NCBI GenBank assembly: GCA_001797815.1
Contig: MGQK01000011.1
Span: 1 to 26,406, forward strand
Direction: 5' to 3'
From: Deltaproteobacteria bacterium RBG_13_61_14
GTDB lineage: Bacteria; RBG-13-61-14
Length of the DNA: 26,406 bases
Made by a program: the position numbers and the translations under genes. How positions within the stretch are numbered: the stretch's first letter is position 1; every line of letters begins with the position of its first letter. Below the pieces are notes generated by a model. That model had not been told where the DNA came from. It ran no database searches and saw only the letters and a program-made list of their open reading frames with translations. Shown piece after piece: positions 5,300 to 17,773 of this stretch.

Positions 5300-5328
5300 T
5301 AAATTGTGAATTGTCAGGACCTGACCCC
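5300..5328 (-). repeat. REP copy 2 (right end of RAYT element)
   Basis: Reverse-orientation copy, TAAATTGTGAATT then GTCAGGACCTGACCCC, starting eight bases after the RAYT stop. Its sequence is open in the forward frame and is read into the following RHS fragment (residues NCQDLTP). Confidence 0.9.
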
Positions 5329-6133
5329 GATGGCCCTAAATAATTATCTTTTTACTGGTGAACAATATGAGGAATGGATAAATGGTTATTATTTAAGAGC
5401 AAGGTATTATAATTCTGCTATTGGCAGATTTTCAAATATGGATCCAATTTTTGAAACAAAAAGCATGAATCGTTATATTTATGTGAATGATAATCCTGCC
5501 AATTCCTTCGATTATAGCGGCTTTTATGGACCAAAAATTCACCGTGACAAGACATTTGAATTTATGAATAAAGATTTGAAATTGAAATGTAGCGAGGAAA
5601 TCGAAAATGATATTGCTGACGCCGACGCGCTGGTTGATAGATTGCATAGGTTAGATTGGCAAGGGTGGCATTTTGTTCCATATGAACAAGCTCTTTTCCT
5701 AGTAAAAGAACAACTTTCTACATGTGATGCCAAGAAATTTGGGCAACGCTTGCATACATTCCAGGATACATTTTCTCATTGTCAAAAAACGGATAGTTGT
5801 GATAAGGATCCAAGTCATGGTGGAAAACCATATTGCAGAACATGTGAAGGTTGCCAAAACCAAGGTATCAATATTTGTCTTCACCCAAGGCCTCCAAAGG
5901 ATGTAACACAAAAGAAGTGCGATAATTTTGATCCTTGTGATGCAGGGACTTGCGATAAATGGAGAGAACAAGATGGTAAAATGAGAGATGAAGTGAAGGA
6001 TATTCTAAGAGAATTTGAACCTTGTTGCTTGTCAAACAAGACCCACAAACTTTTGAAAATGCTCGCCATGTCTACCTATGATATAGGCGATTTAGGAACA
6101 GTGCTATTTACGGCTTCAAGAGGCGGATTCTGA
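5306..6133 (+). CDS. Orphan RHS tip: end of RHS core plus a C-terminal toxin-like domain
   Basis: The 275-codon frame opens at a GTG inside the REP, but RHS homology starts near residue 11. Residues 14-75 are the end of the RHS-repeat-associated core (YLFTGEQYEEWINGYYLRAR, YYNSAIGRFSNMDP, NRYIYVNDNPANSFDYSG). The variable C-terminal domain follows (76-275). It contains H79, W121-H122-F123 and RLHTFQDTFSH (148-158; H150, D154, H158). That H-x3-D-x3-H pattern resembles zinc-dependent phospholipase C-like domains, so a metal-dependent lipase or nuclease-fold toxin is my inference. The stretch from C159 to C241 is unusually cysteine-rich. The RHS cage repeats and any secretion signal are missing, so it is a displaced tip and probably silent without recombination. 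Base composition is far more AT-rich than the flanks. The stop overlaps the next gene's ATG by one base. Confidence 0.75.
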   Translation: MNCQDLTPMALNNYLFTGEQYEEWINGYYLRARYYNSAIGRFSNMDPIFETKSMNRYIYVNDNPANSFDYSGFYGPKIHRDKTFEFMNKDLKLKCSEEIENDIADADALVDRLHRLDWQGWHFVPYEQALFLVKEQLSTCDAKKFGQRLHTFQDTFSHCQKTDSCDKDPSHGGKPYCRTCEGCQNQGINICLHPRPPKDVTQKKCDNFDPCDAGTCDKWREQDGKMRDEVKDILREFEPCCLSNKTHKLLKMLAMSTYDIGDLGTVLFTASRGGF

Positions 6134-6918
6134 TGAGAAAAATATTAATAATTGCAATATTATTTGATTGTATGGGGGTATTTTCATGTAAAAAATATTA
6201 TAATTTTTACAGGAATAATGTAGAACCTGGTAAAGAATGGACTGTAGCCCAGAGTGAGCATGTTTTTTCATTACATCCCCTTTTTTGGATAATGGGGCCA
6301 GGATCAGAAGGTTGGTATCTTTATAGCAGGATATTATATAAAAATATTAATGGGAAATGGGTAAAATGGGTAACTTTGGAACCTATTGTAAATTCTTATG
6401 AAGGCGAATTTTGTGATGATTATTTCCAACCTATATTTTGGGCTGATAATGGATTTATTTATATTTTAAATTGCTTAGGATTTATAGAGAATAAAGATAT
6501 TTATAAAACAAAAATGATAACTACGATATATCAGGTTAGTTTAAATAAGAGAGAAATTATTGCTAGGCAAAGCTTTGGTTGCCTCAGTGGAGATCCTTGT
6601 TATTACAATGGCAATTCTCTATGCTATGATAAAATATTTAGATATAAATTATTAAGGTATAATGATGATATTATATTAATCTTACCTGATCGTGGTGGGA
6701 GATATGATCAAACATGGTTAATTGAAATTAGTAATGATCTCTCAAGACAAATTAAATGTTGTTTAATAGATAAGAGTGTTGCGAATATTAATACCGATAT
6801 AATTGCTGAAATAGATGATAGCGATGTTTATATAAAATGGATAAATATGGACGGGAATTTAATTGAAAAGTCAATTAATATAAAAGATATAGAGGATGGA
6901 AAATGCCCAGAGAATTGA
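6133..6918 (+). CDS. Putative immunity lipoprotein paired with the RHS tip
   Basis: A 261-residue protein of no family I recognise. It begins with a lipoprotein-like signal (MRKILIIAILFDCMGVFSC, candidate lipidated C19), although an aspartate in the hydrophobic stretch is unusual. The mature part is rich in aromatic residues, N and D, and suggests a beta-rich or propeller-like fold (repeated W/Y-containing strands such as WADNGFIYILNCLGF). The ATG overlaps the toxin-tip stop (TGATG), and AGAGGCGG lies six bases upstream, inside the tip gene. This tight coupling and the shared AT-rich composition are typical of RHS/CDI toxin-immunity pairs. A membrane-anchored inhibitor would suit a toxin acting in the periplasm or on membranes. 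The role is inferred from position only. Confidence 0.6.
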   Translation: MRKILIIAILFDCMGVFSCKKYYNFYRNNVEPGKEWTVAQSEHVFSLHPLFWIMGPGSEGWYLYSRILYKNINGKWVKWVTLEPIVNSYEGEFCDDYFQPIFWADNGFIYILNCLGFIENKDIYKTKMITTIYQVSLNKREIIARQSFGCLSGDPCYYNGNSLCYDKIFRYKLLRYNDDIILILPDRGGRYDQTWLIEISNDLSRQIKCCLIDKSVANINTDIIAEIDDSDVYIKWINMDGNLIEKSINIKDIEDGKCPEN

Positions 6919-8781: not shown

Positions 8782-9360
8782 TTAGAATTCTCGGCCCAGG
8801 CGATAGACTTCGTCCAGGTAGCCCTTCCGGGTGGCGTCGTCCGCGTTGAGCACGTTGTGGAAGATTAAATGGGAAACCCGGGGGATCCCGCAGAAATTCA
8901 AGGTGCCGTTGTCCATCACTTTCTTCATGGCCTCGGTAAAGCCCAGGCCCTGATACATGGGCTCCATGCCCCCGGCGGTGTTGAGGATCAGGGCCTTCTT
9001 GATTTTGAGGCGCGGCATCGGGCCGTTGGGGGTCATGTCGTAGGCAAAGCCCTTGCTCAGCACCCGGTCCAGCCAGCCCTTGAGCATGGCCGGCTGGCCG
9101 AACCACCAGATGGGGTAGATAAAGACCAGGGCCTCGGCCCTTCGGATTTTTTCTTGATAGCGGAGAATGTCCGGAGGGATCTCGCCCCGGGCCAGTTGCT
9201 CGAGCTCCGAACCGGTCAAGATCGGCTGGAAACCTTCCGCATAAAGGTCGGAAAGCTCCACCTCATGCCCGGCCTCTCGCAGTCCCTGGATCAGGCGGTC
9301 CCGGATCGCGGCGTTGAACGAGCCGGTCAGGGGATGGGTGTAGATGATATAGACATTCAT
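8782..9360 (-). CDS. NAD(P)H-quinone oxidoreductase-like flavoprotein (flavodoxin-2 fold)
   Basis: A 192-residue protein of the NQO1/MdaB/KefF family (PF02525), FAD- or FMN-dependent, catalysing two-electron reduction of quinones by NAD(P)H, usually in detoxification. THPLTGSFNAAI (8-19) is the N-terminal phosphate loop, and LVFIYPIWWFGQPAMLKGWL (78-97) followed by DRVLSKGFAYD is the diagnostic core. NTAGG begins the third conserved loop. The start is supported by AGGAGG seven bases upstream on the minus strand. KefF-type members assist Kef antiporters, but the CPA2 antiporter here is about 10 kb away, so no link is claimed. Confidence 0.9.
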   Translation of the reverse strand: MNVYIIYTHPLTGSFNAAIRDRLIQGLREAGHEVELSDLYAEGFQPILTGSELEQLARGEIPPDILRYQEKIRRAEALVFIYPIWWFGQPAMLKGWLDRVLSKGFAYDMTPNGPMPRLKIKKALILNTAGGMEPMYQGLGFTEAMKKVMDNGTLNFCGIPRVSHLIFHNVLNADDATRKGYLDEVYRLGREF

Positions 9361-9670
9361 GGCGGCGCCTCCTTCCTTTCAGTTCTCCTTCCAGACTACC
9401 ATATTTTCGGACCCGAAACCGAATCTTCGGCCGGAACCCGCCCAAGGGAACAAGAGATGAGCGGGCCAGCCTTGGACCGCGGCGACTAATGGCCCCGGCC
9501 CTGCTGACCCTTCATGAGTTTTTGTGTTTTGCATCTCCGCAGCGCTTGTGCTAAACTTAAGTCAATCAACTCAGCCACCCAGCCCAGCCGCACGTTGCAT
9601 TCTTGACCTCATGGCGCAAGACAACGGGCTCCGGCTTTTTGCCGAGCCCGAAACCAGAAAGGAAACCATC
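9361..9670. other. Divergent intergenic region
   Basis: About 310 bp between divergent genes. It holds the quinone reductase ribosome-binding site at the left, an AT-poor stretch without a convincing consensus promoter, and a leader hairpin at the right (9625-9650). An upstream in-frame ATG near 9524 gives low-quality, non-family residues and is not used. Confidence 0.5.
9625..9650 (+). promoter_or_regulatory. Leader hairpin just upstream of the Fe-S protein ribosome-binding site
   Basis: CGGGCTCCGGC (9625-9635), a TTTTT loop and GCCGAGCCCG (9641-9650) form a ten-pair stem with one bulged C. The AAAGGAAA ribosome-binding site follows within ten bases. It may stabilise the message or modulate initiation; there is no T-run after it, so it is not a terminator. 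Confidence 0.5.
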
Positions 9671-10732
9671 ATGTCCGAAGAAGTCTATCGCCGGCTCCGT
9701 GAATTCATGGACCGCATGCCCGGGGGTTATCCGGCCACCAAGAGCGGGGTGGAGATCAAGCTCTTGAAGAAACTCTTCGAGCCGGACGAGGCCGAGGTGG
9801 TGATGAAGATGGGCCCGTTCCCGATGCCGCTCGCCCAGGCGGCCAAGGCCCTCGGCCTGGAGGAGAAGGCCGCGGCCGCAAAGCTGGAGGTCATGGCCAA
9901 GAAGGGCCAGCTTTTCCGGATGCGGGCCGGTAATACCGTATTGTATATGGCCATGCAGTTCGCGGTCGGGGTTTACGAGTTCAGCATGAACCGGATGGAC
10001 CGGGAGACCGCCGAGCTTTTGGAAGAATACATGAAGGAAGGCGCGCTCCAGCAGCTCTTCACCCGGACCAAGACCCAGCAGCTCCGGGTGGTGCCCATCC
10101 AGGAGTCCTTGCCGGTCTCGCCGGCGGTGGCCTCTTACGACCAGGTGCGCGCCCTGGTGGAGAAGCATGATAAGTTCTCGGTTGCCCCTTGCATCTGCCG
10201 CAAAGAGCAGGCTCTGCTCGGGCACCCTTGCTCGCGTCCGTTGGAGAGCTGCCTCCAGTTCGGCCCGGCCGCGGACTATTACGTGGAAAACGGGCTGGGC
10301 CGCTCCATCAGCAAGGAGGAAGTTTTCCAGATCCTGAAGAAGGCGGAGGAAGCGGCGCTGGTGCTGAGTCCCACCAACTCTCAGGAGATCGGCTCGATCT
10401 GCTGCTGTTGCTCGTGCTGCTGCGGGGTGATCCGGAACCTGAGCAAGTTCGAGCGGCCGGCCGAGATCGTGGCTTCAGGCTATCGGGCGGCGCTGAGCGC
10501 CGAGGATTGCAGCAATTGCGGGGCCTGCCTGGACCGCTGCCAGATGGCCGCCATCGAGGAGGGGGATGAGCGCGTGAGCATCCTGGCGCACCGGTGCATC
10601 GGCTGCGGGCTGTGCGTGCCGGCCTGCCCGGAAGAAGCGATCAAGCTTTTGCCCCGGCCGGAGGCGGCGGTGCCGCCGGCCAACATTGCGGCCACCATGA
10701 TGCAGATCATGAAAGAGAGAGGCTTGCTCTGA
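9671..10732 (+). CDS. Cysteine-rich protein with two C-terminal [4Fe-4S] clusters
   Basis: A 353-residue cytoplasmic Fe-S protein. Residues about 25-95 look like a winged-helix region. A central region has C174, C176, C187 and C194 (PCICRKEQALLGHPCSRPLE...C), then the striking ICCCCSCCCG (243-252). The C-terminus is a bacterial ferredoxin pair: C280xxC283xxC286xxxC290 and C309xxC312xxC315xxxC319. Related proteins are annotated only as 4Fe-4S dicluster proteins in anaerobes; the partner and reaction are unknown. With 19 cysteines it could hold further metal besides the two ferredoxin clusters. The start at 9671 is chosen because MSEEVYRRL follows a usable ribosome-binding site. Confidence 0.8.
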   Translation: MSEEVYRRLREFMDRMPGGYPATKSGVEIKLLKKLFEPDEAEVVMKMGPFPMPLAQAAKALGLEEKAAAAKLEVMAKKGQLFRMRAGNTVLYMAMQFAVGVYEFSMNRMDRETAELLEEYMKEGALQQLFTRTKTQQLRVVPIQESLPVSPAVASYDQVRALVEKHDKFSVAPCICRKEQALLGHPCSRPLESCLQFGPAADYYVENGLGRSISKEEVFQILKKAEEAALVLSPTNSQEIGSICCCCSCCCGVIRNLSKFERPAEIVASGYRAALSAEDCSNCGACLDRCQMAAIEEGDERVSILAHRCIGCGLCVPACPEEAIKLLPRPEAAVPPANIAATMMQIMKERGLL

Positions 10733-10926
10733 ACCTGAGGCTGGTGCCTGATCCGGGATTAGAAAAAGAGCCTATTTTCAAGGGGTCTATCCTGCCGATT
10801 GTTTTTACTCAAGGTGTTGCAAAAACGCATCAATTCCCAATCTATTGGAATTTCAAGCTAAAATTAGCCTGCAAATTTTTAATAATCTATAGAAATTGTC
10901 AATTGGCAAAAAAACGAAAAAAGTTC
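10733..10926. other. AT-rich intergenic stretch before the Fic promoter
   Basis: After the Fe-S gene the sequence becomes AT-rich within about 30 bp and stays so into the start of the fic gene. I see no gene, antitoxin-like small frame or clear terminator in it. Confidence 0.5.
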
Positions 10927-14941: not shown

Positions 14942-16375
14942 TTGCGCAAGGTTGGAAAAAACCAGGTTTTGGATCATTTCCAGGAAATAGACCGGCTCTG
15001 GCGGCCCCGGGCGATCGCGGTCGTGGGCCTGAGCGACAAGCTCGGCAACATGGGCCAGATGTTCGCGATCGCGCTCAAGAACCAGGGCTTTAAGGGGCCG
15101 CTGGTGGGCGTGAACCCGGGTGCGGAGGTGAAAAGCCTGCCCAGTGTGCGCCGGCTCCAGGAATTCGAGGGGCCGCTCGACCACATTATCATCTGCGTGC
15201 CGGCCCGGGAGATCGAGGGCGTGATCCGGGACGCGGTGGAAAAGGGCGTGCGCTGTGCGGCCATGTTCACCTCCGGTTTTTCCGAGGAGGGCCACGAGGA
15301 AGGCCGGCGGCTGGAAGAGCGGATCGCGGCCATCGCCCGCGAAGGCGGTCTGCGGCTGATCGGGCCGAACTGCATGGGCCTGCACTACCCGCCCCGCGGC
15401 TTGAGCTTCCGGCCCGATATGCCCGCCGCCTGGGGCCGCGCCGCCATGACTTCCCAGTCCGGGGGCATGGCCCTCTCCACCCTGATGAACTGCGCGGAGC
15501 GCGGCGTGCCGCTGGGCAAGGTGGTGAGCTACGGCAACGAGTGCGACCTCACCGCCCAGGACTTTATCCGCTACTTTGCCGACGATCCCGAGACCGACCG
15601 CATCGTCATGTATATCGAAGGCACCAAAAACGGCCCTGAGCTTATCCAGGCCATGATCGCGGCCGGCCGGAAAAAACCCCTGATCGTGTGCAAGGGCGGC
15701 CGCACCTCGGTGGGCACCCGGGCCGCGGCCTCCCACACCGGCGCGCTCGCCGGCTCGCGCGAGATCTGGCAGGCAGCCTTCCGCCAGGCCGGGGCCAGGG
15801 TCGCAGGCAGTATTGACGAGTTGGTGGACTTGATCGAGGCGGAAGAGCGCATGGAAAAGCCCCAGGGCCGGGGTCTCGCGGTCCTCACCATCTCCGGCGG
15901 CTTCGGCGTCTTTGCCACCGACGTGGCGGCCGAGCATGGTTTCTCGGTCCCGCAGTTTTCCGACGCGACCCGGACGGCCATGGCCAAGTTCATCAATTTT
16001 CCCGGCACCTCGGTCAAGAACCCGCTGGACATGGCCGCGGCCATTTTCTTCCAGGGCGACCACGTGCCCATCTATGCGCCCCTCGGCCAGGACCCGAACA
16101 TTGACGCGGTGCTCGTGCTGCTCAGCATCGAATACATCCACCTGATCGAGGGCTTCGGACCCCTGGACCCGGTCAGTTTCACCAAGTGGTTTTTGGAGCA
16201 GATGTTCAAGGGGCTCCGCGCCGCGGGCAAGCCCGCGGCCTTTGTCTTTTTCGAGTCGGTGAAGCAGGCCCAGCGCCTGGAATACGTGAAGCTCATCCGC
16301 GATTCCGGCTTCCCGGTCTTTCCCACCGTGGAAAGGGCGATGAAGGCGCTTGCTGAGAAAGTAGGCAATAGATAG
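14942..16375 (+). CDS. Acyl-CoA synthetase (NDP-forming), alpha-type subunit
   Basis: A ~477-residue protein of the ADP-forming acetyl/acyl-CoA synthetase family, which makes ATP from acyl-CoA, ADP and phosphate in anaerobes and archaea. The N-terminal CoA-binding Rossmann domain has RPRAIAVVGLSDKLGNMGQM, then succinyl-CoA-ligase-like domains (GPNCMGLHYPPRG, MTSQSGGMA). The catalytic histidine expected to be phosphorylated is in AAASHTGALAGS (H265 from this start). The ATP-grasp beta domain is absent and no beta-subunit gene is adjacent, so it needs a partner elsewhere or has a changed role. Start: TTG at 14942 has GAGGAG seven bases upstream. TTG at 14936 is in frame but too close to that site. 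It has its own promoter and is followed by a GC hairpin repeat. Confidence 0.85.
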   Translation: MRKVGKNQVLDHFQEIDRLWRPRAIAVVGLSDKLGNMGQMFAIALKNQGFKGPLVGVNPGAEVKSLPSVRRLQEFEGPLDHIIICVPAREIEGVIRDAVEKGVRCAAMFTSGFSEEGHEEGRRLEERIAAIAREGGLRLIGPNCMGLHYPPRGLSFRPDMPAAWGRAAMTSQSGGMALSTLMNCAERGVPLGKVVSYGNECDLTAQDFIRYFADDPETDRIVMYIEGTKNGPELIQAMIAAGRKKPLIVCKGGRTSVGTRAAASHTGALAGSREIWQAAFRQAGARVAGSIDELVDLIEAEERMEKPQGRGLAVLTISGGFGVFATDVAAEHGFSVPQFSDATRTAMAKFINFPGTSVKNPLDMAAAIFFQGDHVPIYAPLGQDPNIDAVLVLLSIEYIHLIEGFGPLDPVSFTKWFLEQMFKGLRAAGKPAAFVFFESVKQAQRLEYVKLIRDSGFPVFPTVERAMKALAEKVGNR

Positions 16376-16376
16376 A

Positions 16377-16410
16377 GGTTGCGCGGGTGGGGTCACCCGC
16401 GCCCCTAAAG
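16377..16410 (+). repeat. GC-hairpin repeat, left border copy
   Basis: GGTTGCGCGGG (16377-16387) and CCGCGCCCCTAAAG (16397-16410) are shared exactly with the copy at 17728-17773; only the middle differs. Here GCGCGGGTG (16381-16389) and CACCCGCGC (16394-16402) form a nine-pair stem with a GGGT loop. It starts two bases after a stop codon. Without a T-run it is not a standard terminator. Confidence 0.75.
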
Positions 16411-16494: not shown

Positions 16495-16797
16495 ATGAGT
16501 CCTCGCTTTCAAGTTGACCCGGCCAAAATTATCGCCTTCTGCCACAAGTGGAAAGTCCGCGAATTCTCTATTTTCGGCTCGGTCCTGCGCGAGGACTTTA
16601 ACCCGGAAAGCGACGTGGACGTGCTGGTCAGCTTCGAACCGGATGCGCCCTGGAGCTATTTTGAATGGGCCGACATGACCGACGAGTTAAAGGAGATTTT
16701 CGGCCGGGAGGTGGACCTGGTGGAAAAAGAGAGCCTGCAGAACCCTTATCGCCGCCATTCCATTCTCAGCTCCCGGCGGGTGCTCTATGCAGCCTGA
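16495..16797 (+). CDS. mntA: MNT-type nucleotidyltransferase antitoxin
   Basis: A 100-residue minimal nucleotidyltransferase. In characterised MntA-HepT pairs it inactivates the HEPN ribonuclease by AMPylating a tyrosine near the active site. The signature GSx10DxD is exact: G28-S29, ten residues, D40-V-D42 (FGSVLREDF then NPESDVDVLV). The third carboxylate is expected at D74 or close by in GREVDLVEKE. The stop overlaps the hepT start by 11 bp, so the pair is coupled. A consensus promoter lies directly upstream. The length is normal for the family. Confidence 0.9.
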   Translation: MSPRFQVDPAKIIAFCHKWKVREFSIFGSVLREDFNPESDVDVLVSFEPDAPWSYFEWADMTDELKEIFGREVDLVEKESLQNPYRRHSILSSRRVLYAA

Positions 16798-17152
16798 CCA
16801 GCGGGATGCCGCGCTCCTCTGGGACATGGTCAAATACTCCCGCCTGATCGGCCAAATCACCCAAGATGTTGCTTATGCTCACTATCTGAAAGATCGCAAA
16901 CTGCAACTAGCCGTGGAGCGAGCGGTCGAGGTCGTGGGTGAAGCGGCCCGGCATGTTTCCCCGGCCTTCAAGGAGGCCCATCCGGAAATTCCCTGGCGCG
17001 GGATCATCGCCCAACGCAACGTCCTCGCCCATGAATACGGGGAAATCAATCAAGACCGTCTCTGGATGGTGGTGACCGAGAGAATTCCGAAATTGCTCGA
17101 ATTCCTGGACCGCCTCGAATTGCCTCCCAAGCCGACGGATGCTGAAACTTGA
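16787..17152 (+). CDS. hepT: HepT-like HEPN ribonuclease toxin
   Basis: A 121-residue all-helical HEPN protein (DUF86/HepT family), a toxin that cleaves RNA as a dimer. The catalytic RX4HXY motif is complete: R77-NVLA-H82-E-Y84, with Y84 the expected target of AMPylation by MntA. WDMVKYSRLIGQ (12-23) and AVERAVEVVGEAARHVSP (42-59) are typical helices. It overlaps mntA by 11 bp. The intact motif suggests an active toxin held in check by its partner. The pair probably works in phage defence or stress response, as for known homologues. Confidence 0.92.
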   Translation: MQPDQRDAALLWDMVKYSRLIGQITQDVAYAHYLKDRKLQLAVERAVEVVGEAARHVSPAFKEAHPEIPWRGIIAQRNVLAHEYGEINQDRLWMVVTERIPKLLEFLDRLELPPKPTDAET

Positions 17153-17212
17153 TCTCAATCGGTGATGCGACTGCGCCTTAGCCTTTTGTCCTATCATTAA
17201 GGAGGTTACGAA

Positions 17213-17680
17213 ATGGGTTCTAAGCATTCAGGAGATCAAGGGGAGAGGGAGGTCATAAGAAAAGTCTGTTGCCCTAATTGTGGCAAGAAATTAATGGTAT
17301 TACCTCCAAATTATCCTTTATATGATATCCAATGCACGGGCTGTTATTTTCGAGCTCAAATCAAAACCAACAAATGCAGGCCAAAAAATGTTGTCTTCGG
17401 TGCCGGTTGGGAAATTGTCAATAAGGTTTTAAAATCGGGATTTATCACACCGCCCTTGATTCTGAACTTCAAATGGGAGGAAGAGAGTAAGCCAAAACAA
17501 GAAATTCGTTTTTATCCTTTTGTCCCTAGAAAAAACTTAAAGCATTATAAATTATCTAAAAAGGCAAGGAGGGCAGGTTATCGAATGTTTAATTACGTTG
17601 AAATGGATAAAGTGCCTTTTTTTATTTGGACTTCCTCTGGAATTTGGAGTATAGGGGGCATAGCTTCAAATAACATCTAA
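17213..17680 (+). CDS. Small DpnI-like PD-(D/E)xK endonuclease domain protein
   Basis: A 155-residue protein that I align by eye with the catalytic domain of DpnI, which cuts adenine-methylated GATC. Shared features in order: a zinc ribbon, C20-PN-C23 and C41-TG-C44; D38 and QIK (49-51), with the same 11-residue and 2-residue spacings as DpnI D53/E64/K66; and KKARRAGYRMFNYVEMDKVP (116-135), like the DpnI TARRAGWIGCNIDLSQVP segment. The central acid is Q here (D...QxK), a variant known in Mrr-type nucleases. The DpnI C-terminal winged helix is absent, so specificity may differ. The ATG has AAGGAGG seven bases upstream. It is AT-rich compared with its neighbours, has no visible methylase partner, and sits 60 bp after hepT. 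DpnI residue numbers are from memory. Confidence 0.72.
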   Translation: MGSKHSGDQGEREVIRKVCCPNCGKKLMVLPPNYPLYDIQCTGCYFRAQIKTNKCRPKNVVFGAGWEIVNKVLKSGFITPPLILNFKWEEESKPKQEIRFYPFVPRKNLKHYKLSKKARRAGYRMFNYVEMDKVPFFIWTSSGIWSIGGIASNNI

Positions 17681-17727: not shown

Positions 17728-17773
17728 GGTTGCGCGGGATGATGCATGGCTGAGGTCAGCCGCGCCCCTAAAG
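17728..17773 (+). repeat. GC-hairpin repeat, right border copy
   Basis: GGTTGCGCGGG (17728-17738) and CCGCGCCCCTAAAG (17760-17773) match the copy at 16377-16410 exactly at both ends, with a longer, different centre. The two direct copies enclose mntA, hepT and the DpnI-like gene. Confidence 0.75.

Follow-up and report, generated by a model that had tools for sequence, protein, structure and literature searches.

How much of a modification-dependent restriction enzyme can be lost before it ceases to be a nuclease? An open reading frame in a 26,406-nucleotide contig of Deltaproteobacteria bacterium RBG_13_61_14 (MGQK01000011.1; hereafter the window) raises this question: its product resembles the catalytic domain of DpnI, with glutamine in place of the central acidic residue and no winged helix. 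The initial annotation, aligning it to DpnI by eye, proposed either a defense nuclease of new specificity or an inactive DNA-binding relic. Homology, residue mapping, conservation, gene neighborhood and atypical composition are established directly below, and together they bear on this choice.

A stand-alone homologue of the DpnI catalytic domain

The reading frame (17213–17680, + strand) begins with ATG, lies 7 bases downstream of a Shine-Dalgarno-like AGGAGG identified by sequence reading (17200–17205, +), and encodes 155 residues. The product matches the Pfam DpnI model PF06044 over residues 12–135 (E 1.1e-9, 38.6 bits; curated gathering cut-off 26.7 bits), and other short forms score 31.9–56.3 bits. 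The PADLOC mREase_II model (type II methyl-directed restriction enzyme) also matches (E 8e-6), a profile of 12 short relatives recovered the PDB DpnI sequence (E 6.3e-6, chain residues 27–150), and profile–profile comparison with full-length patescibacterial DpnI gave a probability of 98.1% (E 8e-14). The proposed homology to DpnI is thereby borne out. So is the absence of the winged helix: Pfam returned no PF17726 match in the 155-residue protein, and a full-length protein does show one. Homology stops near DpnI residue 150–155, and the Gln18 contact of DpnI and ~27 C-terminal residues of its catalytic domain are absent. AlphaFold models, built from 4 and 5 sequences, reached mean pLDDT values of 37 and 40, too low to be usable; the predicted PD-(D/E)xK fold derives from homology only.

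Profile and profile–profile alignments both place D38 (codon 17324–17326, +) on the catalytic D53 of DpnI and Q49-x-K51 (17357–17365, +) on E64-L65-K66, in agreement with the by-eye alignment. In the DpnI crystal structure, D53 and E64 are metal ligands and K66 is the catalytic lysine (PMC4117772). The two halves of the zinc ribbon are supplied by C20/C23 (17270–17281, +) and C41/C44 (17333–17344, +), and E11 within a GxxGE motif (17243–17245, +) aligns with the conserved E25 on helix 1 of DpnI, which is invariant in full-length forms. The cysteines, the D...QxK residues and the KKARRAG block all lie where the initial annotation had put them. E11, D38, Q49, K51, T52, C20, C23, C41 and C44 are invariant in 12/12 aligned short forms, so that no variation at D38 or K51 was found among these same-length homologues. 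The aspartate and lysine of the DpnI D...ExK triad are thus retained, and the glutamate is replaced by glutamine in every short form, whereas ExK is present in all nine full-length patescibacterial DpnI proteins and in one full-length protein from another genome; the E-to-Q change is thus a fixed trait of the short lineage.

By analogy, glutamine at this position need not imply inactivity, because the BisI-family enzymes NhoI and Eco15I have working QVK and QIK sites in which the glutamine coordinates metal (PMC11347163), and because a QLK site occurs within PF06044 itself, in a winged-helix-bearing DpnI relative (L093) whose R-x-x-W-x-G loop is intact. Since that protein combines QLK with a winged helix, the glutamine is not coupled to winged-helix loss. 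Its domain order is swapped (G510, minus strand 1429–2250), with PF17726 at residues 26–91 followed by PF06044 at 103–250.

Distribution and genomic neighborhood

A scan of genome contigs identified four relatives at 61–66% identity, all in Patescibacteria MAGs. Among 379 patescibacterial genomes, 9 carry a short form (about 2%) and 9 a full-length DpnI; two further matches in this sweep were full-length and were left out of the short-form count. Across 386 genomes selected for their relatedness to the window genome, the short form was detected in the window genome only, the two other matches being full-length. Members of the short-form clade are stand-alone proteins of 140–150 residues, and an Azospirillum plasmid carries a further stand-alone copy, divergent at about 31% identity. 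Phylogenetic analysis set the short forms apart from the full-length ones (support 100/99) and placed the window copy among the patescibacterial copies, without fixing its exact position. The window protein is thus a member of a recurring family rather than a lone relic. In-frame stops interrupt 2 of 14 copies, as expected of dispensable defense genes or of MAG errors. Searches of viral contigs and phage sequences yielded no relative of the short form, and the literature examined contained no published description of a short QxK form, which is not proof of absence. Weak PF06044 matches in other Patescibacteria (L024–L027, L032) were dropped as zinc-ribbon proteins, several of which bear a metallopeptidase motif of the HExxH type.

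Five of the 12 patescibacterial copies lie co-directionally downstream of restriction-modification (R-M) genes: HsdM-HsdS in G200, HsdS and HsdR in G125 (with HsdM further upstream), HsdM-OLD-HsdS in G173, HsdS in G006, and an AlwI-like nuclease with a CcrM-like methylase in G028. Of the six HsdS clusters that these genomes contain, four fall within 5 kb of the short-form gene, an outcome with a probability of about 3e-7 under random placement. No R-M gene was found within 4.5 kb at the remaining 7 of the 12 patescibacterial loci or at the window copy, so the expectation of defense-gene neighbors holds for part of the family. R-M linkage is also not significantly more frequent than for full-length DpnI (5/12 versus 1/9; Fisher p 0.18). 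At L050, an AlwI-like nuclease gene and a CcrM-like methylase gene lie downstream of a fusion of a RadC domain with a D12-class adenine methylase (9028–10842).

The adjoining MNT–HEPN pair of the initial description lies directly upstream of the window nuclease gene (16495–17152), comprising an MNT-type nucleotidyltransferase antitoxin (16495–16797, +; PF01909, E 1.5e-17), which the MntA model matches below its cut-off, and a HepT-like HEPN RNase toxin (16787–17152, +; PF01934, E 1.2e-24). Beyond this pair, the nuclease gene sits among metabolic genes. A fixed link between nuclease and MNT–HEPN was rejected, as no MNT–HEPN pair was observed beside any other copy; at the L003 copy, a SocA-like antitoxin gene comes next. 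Copies of a genome-wide palindromic repeat bracket the cassette on the left (16375–16410, +) and right (17738–17773, +). This repeat, ending CCGCGCCCCTAAA, occurs in 28 exact copies in the window genome (G000), against 0 for the reversed control; five copies are clustered at C130:61855–62621. The nuclease gene has a GC content of 37% versus 60% for the contig, indicating that the window copy was probably acquired; most relatives, too, have a lower GC content than the DNA around them. That the AT-rich gene stems from contamination is disfavored: the repeat is found on both flanks and throughout the genome, so the DNA around the cassette belongs to the window genome. Elsewhere in the window, an AT-rich gene pair (5306–6918; 37% and 28% GC) begins with the RHS-core-like YLRARYYNSAIGRFSNMDP; neither ORF has a Pfam match, and the pair looks like an acquired RHS tip with a partner gene.

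Target reading and probable function

Loss of the winged helix had been equated with loss of the methyl-DNA-reading domain. The winged helix is indeed absent, but the statement is too strong, as the catalytic and winged-helix domains of DpnI are each specific for Gm6ATC on their own (PMC4117772). The DpnI catalytic domain holds the methyl groups via L129, R135 and W138, with G140 packing on the tryptophan (PMC4117772). In the window protein, profile and profile–profile alignments match the loop LSKKARRAGYRM (17552–17587, +) to this cleft, aligning L114, R120, Y123 and M125 with L129, R135, W138 and G140. Two of the four residues, the leucine and the arginine, are therefore kept, while W138 is replaced by tyrosine and G140 by methionine. 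Tyrosine or histidine at DpnI position 138 is known in homologues and such variants are partly active, whereas glycine at position 140 was reported to be required beside tryptophan (PMC4117772). Methionine occupies the latter position in 11 of 12 short forms, and the ARRA block is partly missing in two family members; the Azospirillum copy retains both the tryptophan and the glycine. With the cleft partly kept and partly altered, reading of some adenine modification by the short form is plausible, and the exact DpnI specificity is doubtful. Strict Gm6ATC specificity would also fit poorly with the methylases present: the window genome encodes a solitary Dam/DpnM-like adenine methylase (L059, 1336–2238 on contig C117), and several short-form relatives adjoin m6A methylases. 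D12 and CcrM-type methylases adjoin some copies, and a conflict over GATC was considered; the specificity is not readable from sequence.

We favor, with a probability of roughly 0.6, a catalytically competent, minimal DpnI-type PD-(D/Q)xK endonuclease built on a zinc-ribbon catalytic core and acting as a mobile restriction nuclease. In this model, metal would be coordinated by D38 and Q49 and water activated by K51, with the loop around ARRAGY recognizing a target that is probably adenine-modified DNA in some sequence context. Its most likely role would be that of a horizontally mobile restriction nuclease, either a type IV-like enzyme or an extra nuclease beside a resident R-M system. Recurrence of the compact form in the tiny, uncultured Patescibacteria, often beside restriction genes, suggests a working defense nuclease that probably moves between genomes; cleavage, modification dependence and an antiphage role of the short form are what we infer from this picture. 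A bolder and rather doubtful extension would see in the short forms an undescribed single-domain PD-QxK lineage, passed between Patescibacteria and larger bacteria, that serves R-M operons as a second nuclease, the R-M system cutting unmodified DNA and the PD-QxK enzyme cutting foreign adenine-modified DNA.

The five copies that follow type I or type II R-M genes in the same direction would also suit a modification-independent accessory nuclease of R-M operons, whose substrate would be DNA that the neighboring R-M enzyme has marked or stalled, or unmodified sites protected by the neighboring methylase; a published survey in which 87% of winged-helix fusion nucleases had no methylase within three genes on either side (PMC11037411) is in keeping with this view. 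Yet the neighboring systems vary among HsdM/HsdS, HsdR and CcrM-like plus AlwI-like genes, and there is therefore no fixed R-M partner; the seven patescibacterial loci and the window locus free of nearby R-M genes, together with the non-significant contrast with full-length DpnI, likewise make this account improbable. Somewhat less likely still is a catalytically dead, DNA-binding DpnI relic whose role is confined to sensing DNA or regulating neighboring genes. Decay would agree with the missing winged helix, the replaced canonical acid and the in-frame stops in two copies, but invariance of D38, Q49, K51 and E11 across the 12 short forms, one of them at 32% identity, would be unexpected had catalysis been lost, and the working glutamine ligands of the BisI family (PMC11347163) further disfavor the inactive relic entertained at the outset. 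Weak matches to Elf1 and RPC10 could hint at a non-nuclease, zinc-ribbon transcription-type protein that is DpnI-like in its ribbon only; these matches are confined to the ribbon, whereas the DpnI match covers about residues 11–135 of the 155, including the loop far from it, leaving such a protein very improbable.

Comparison with known systems

To our knowledge, the short form would, if active, be the smallest DpnI-type nuclease. Activity would show the winged helix to be dispensable, extend a typically ExK family by a QxK branch, point to a compact defense gene that larger cells share with ultra-small epibiont bacteria, and possibly provide a small modification-reading tool enzyme.

R.DpnI (PF06044 plus PF17726; PDB 4esj, 4kyw) shares with the short form the zinc ribbon around a PD-(D/E)xK site, the D-x10-[E/Q]-x-K spacing, the L129 and R135 cleft residues and the RRAG loop. 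The short form differs in having no winged helix, a catalytic domain shorter at both ends, and the replacements E64 to Q, W138 to Y and G140 to M. BisI/Mrr-type PD-QxK modification-dependent nucleases such as NhoI and Eco15I likewise have QVK or QIK as the metal-binding motif instead of (D/E)xK, but belong to another family and target 5mC, and no sequence match between them and the short form was found. Some winged-helix fusion type IV nucleases also deploy a DpnI-like PD-(D/E)xK module in modification-dependent defense (PMC11037411); they carry the winged helix and mostly have no nearby methylase, whereas the short form dispenses with the winged helix and often lies beside R-M genes.
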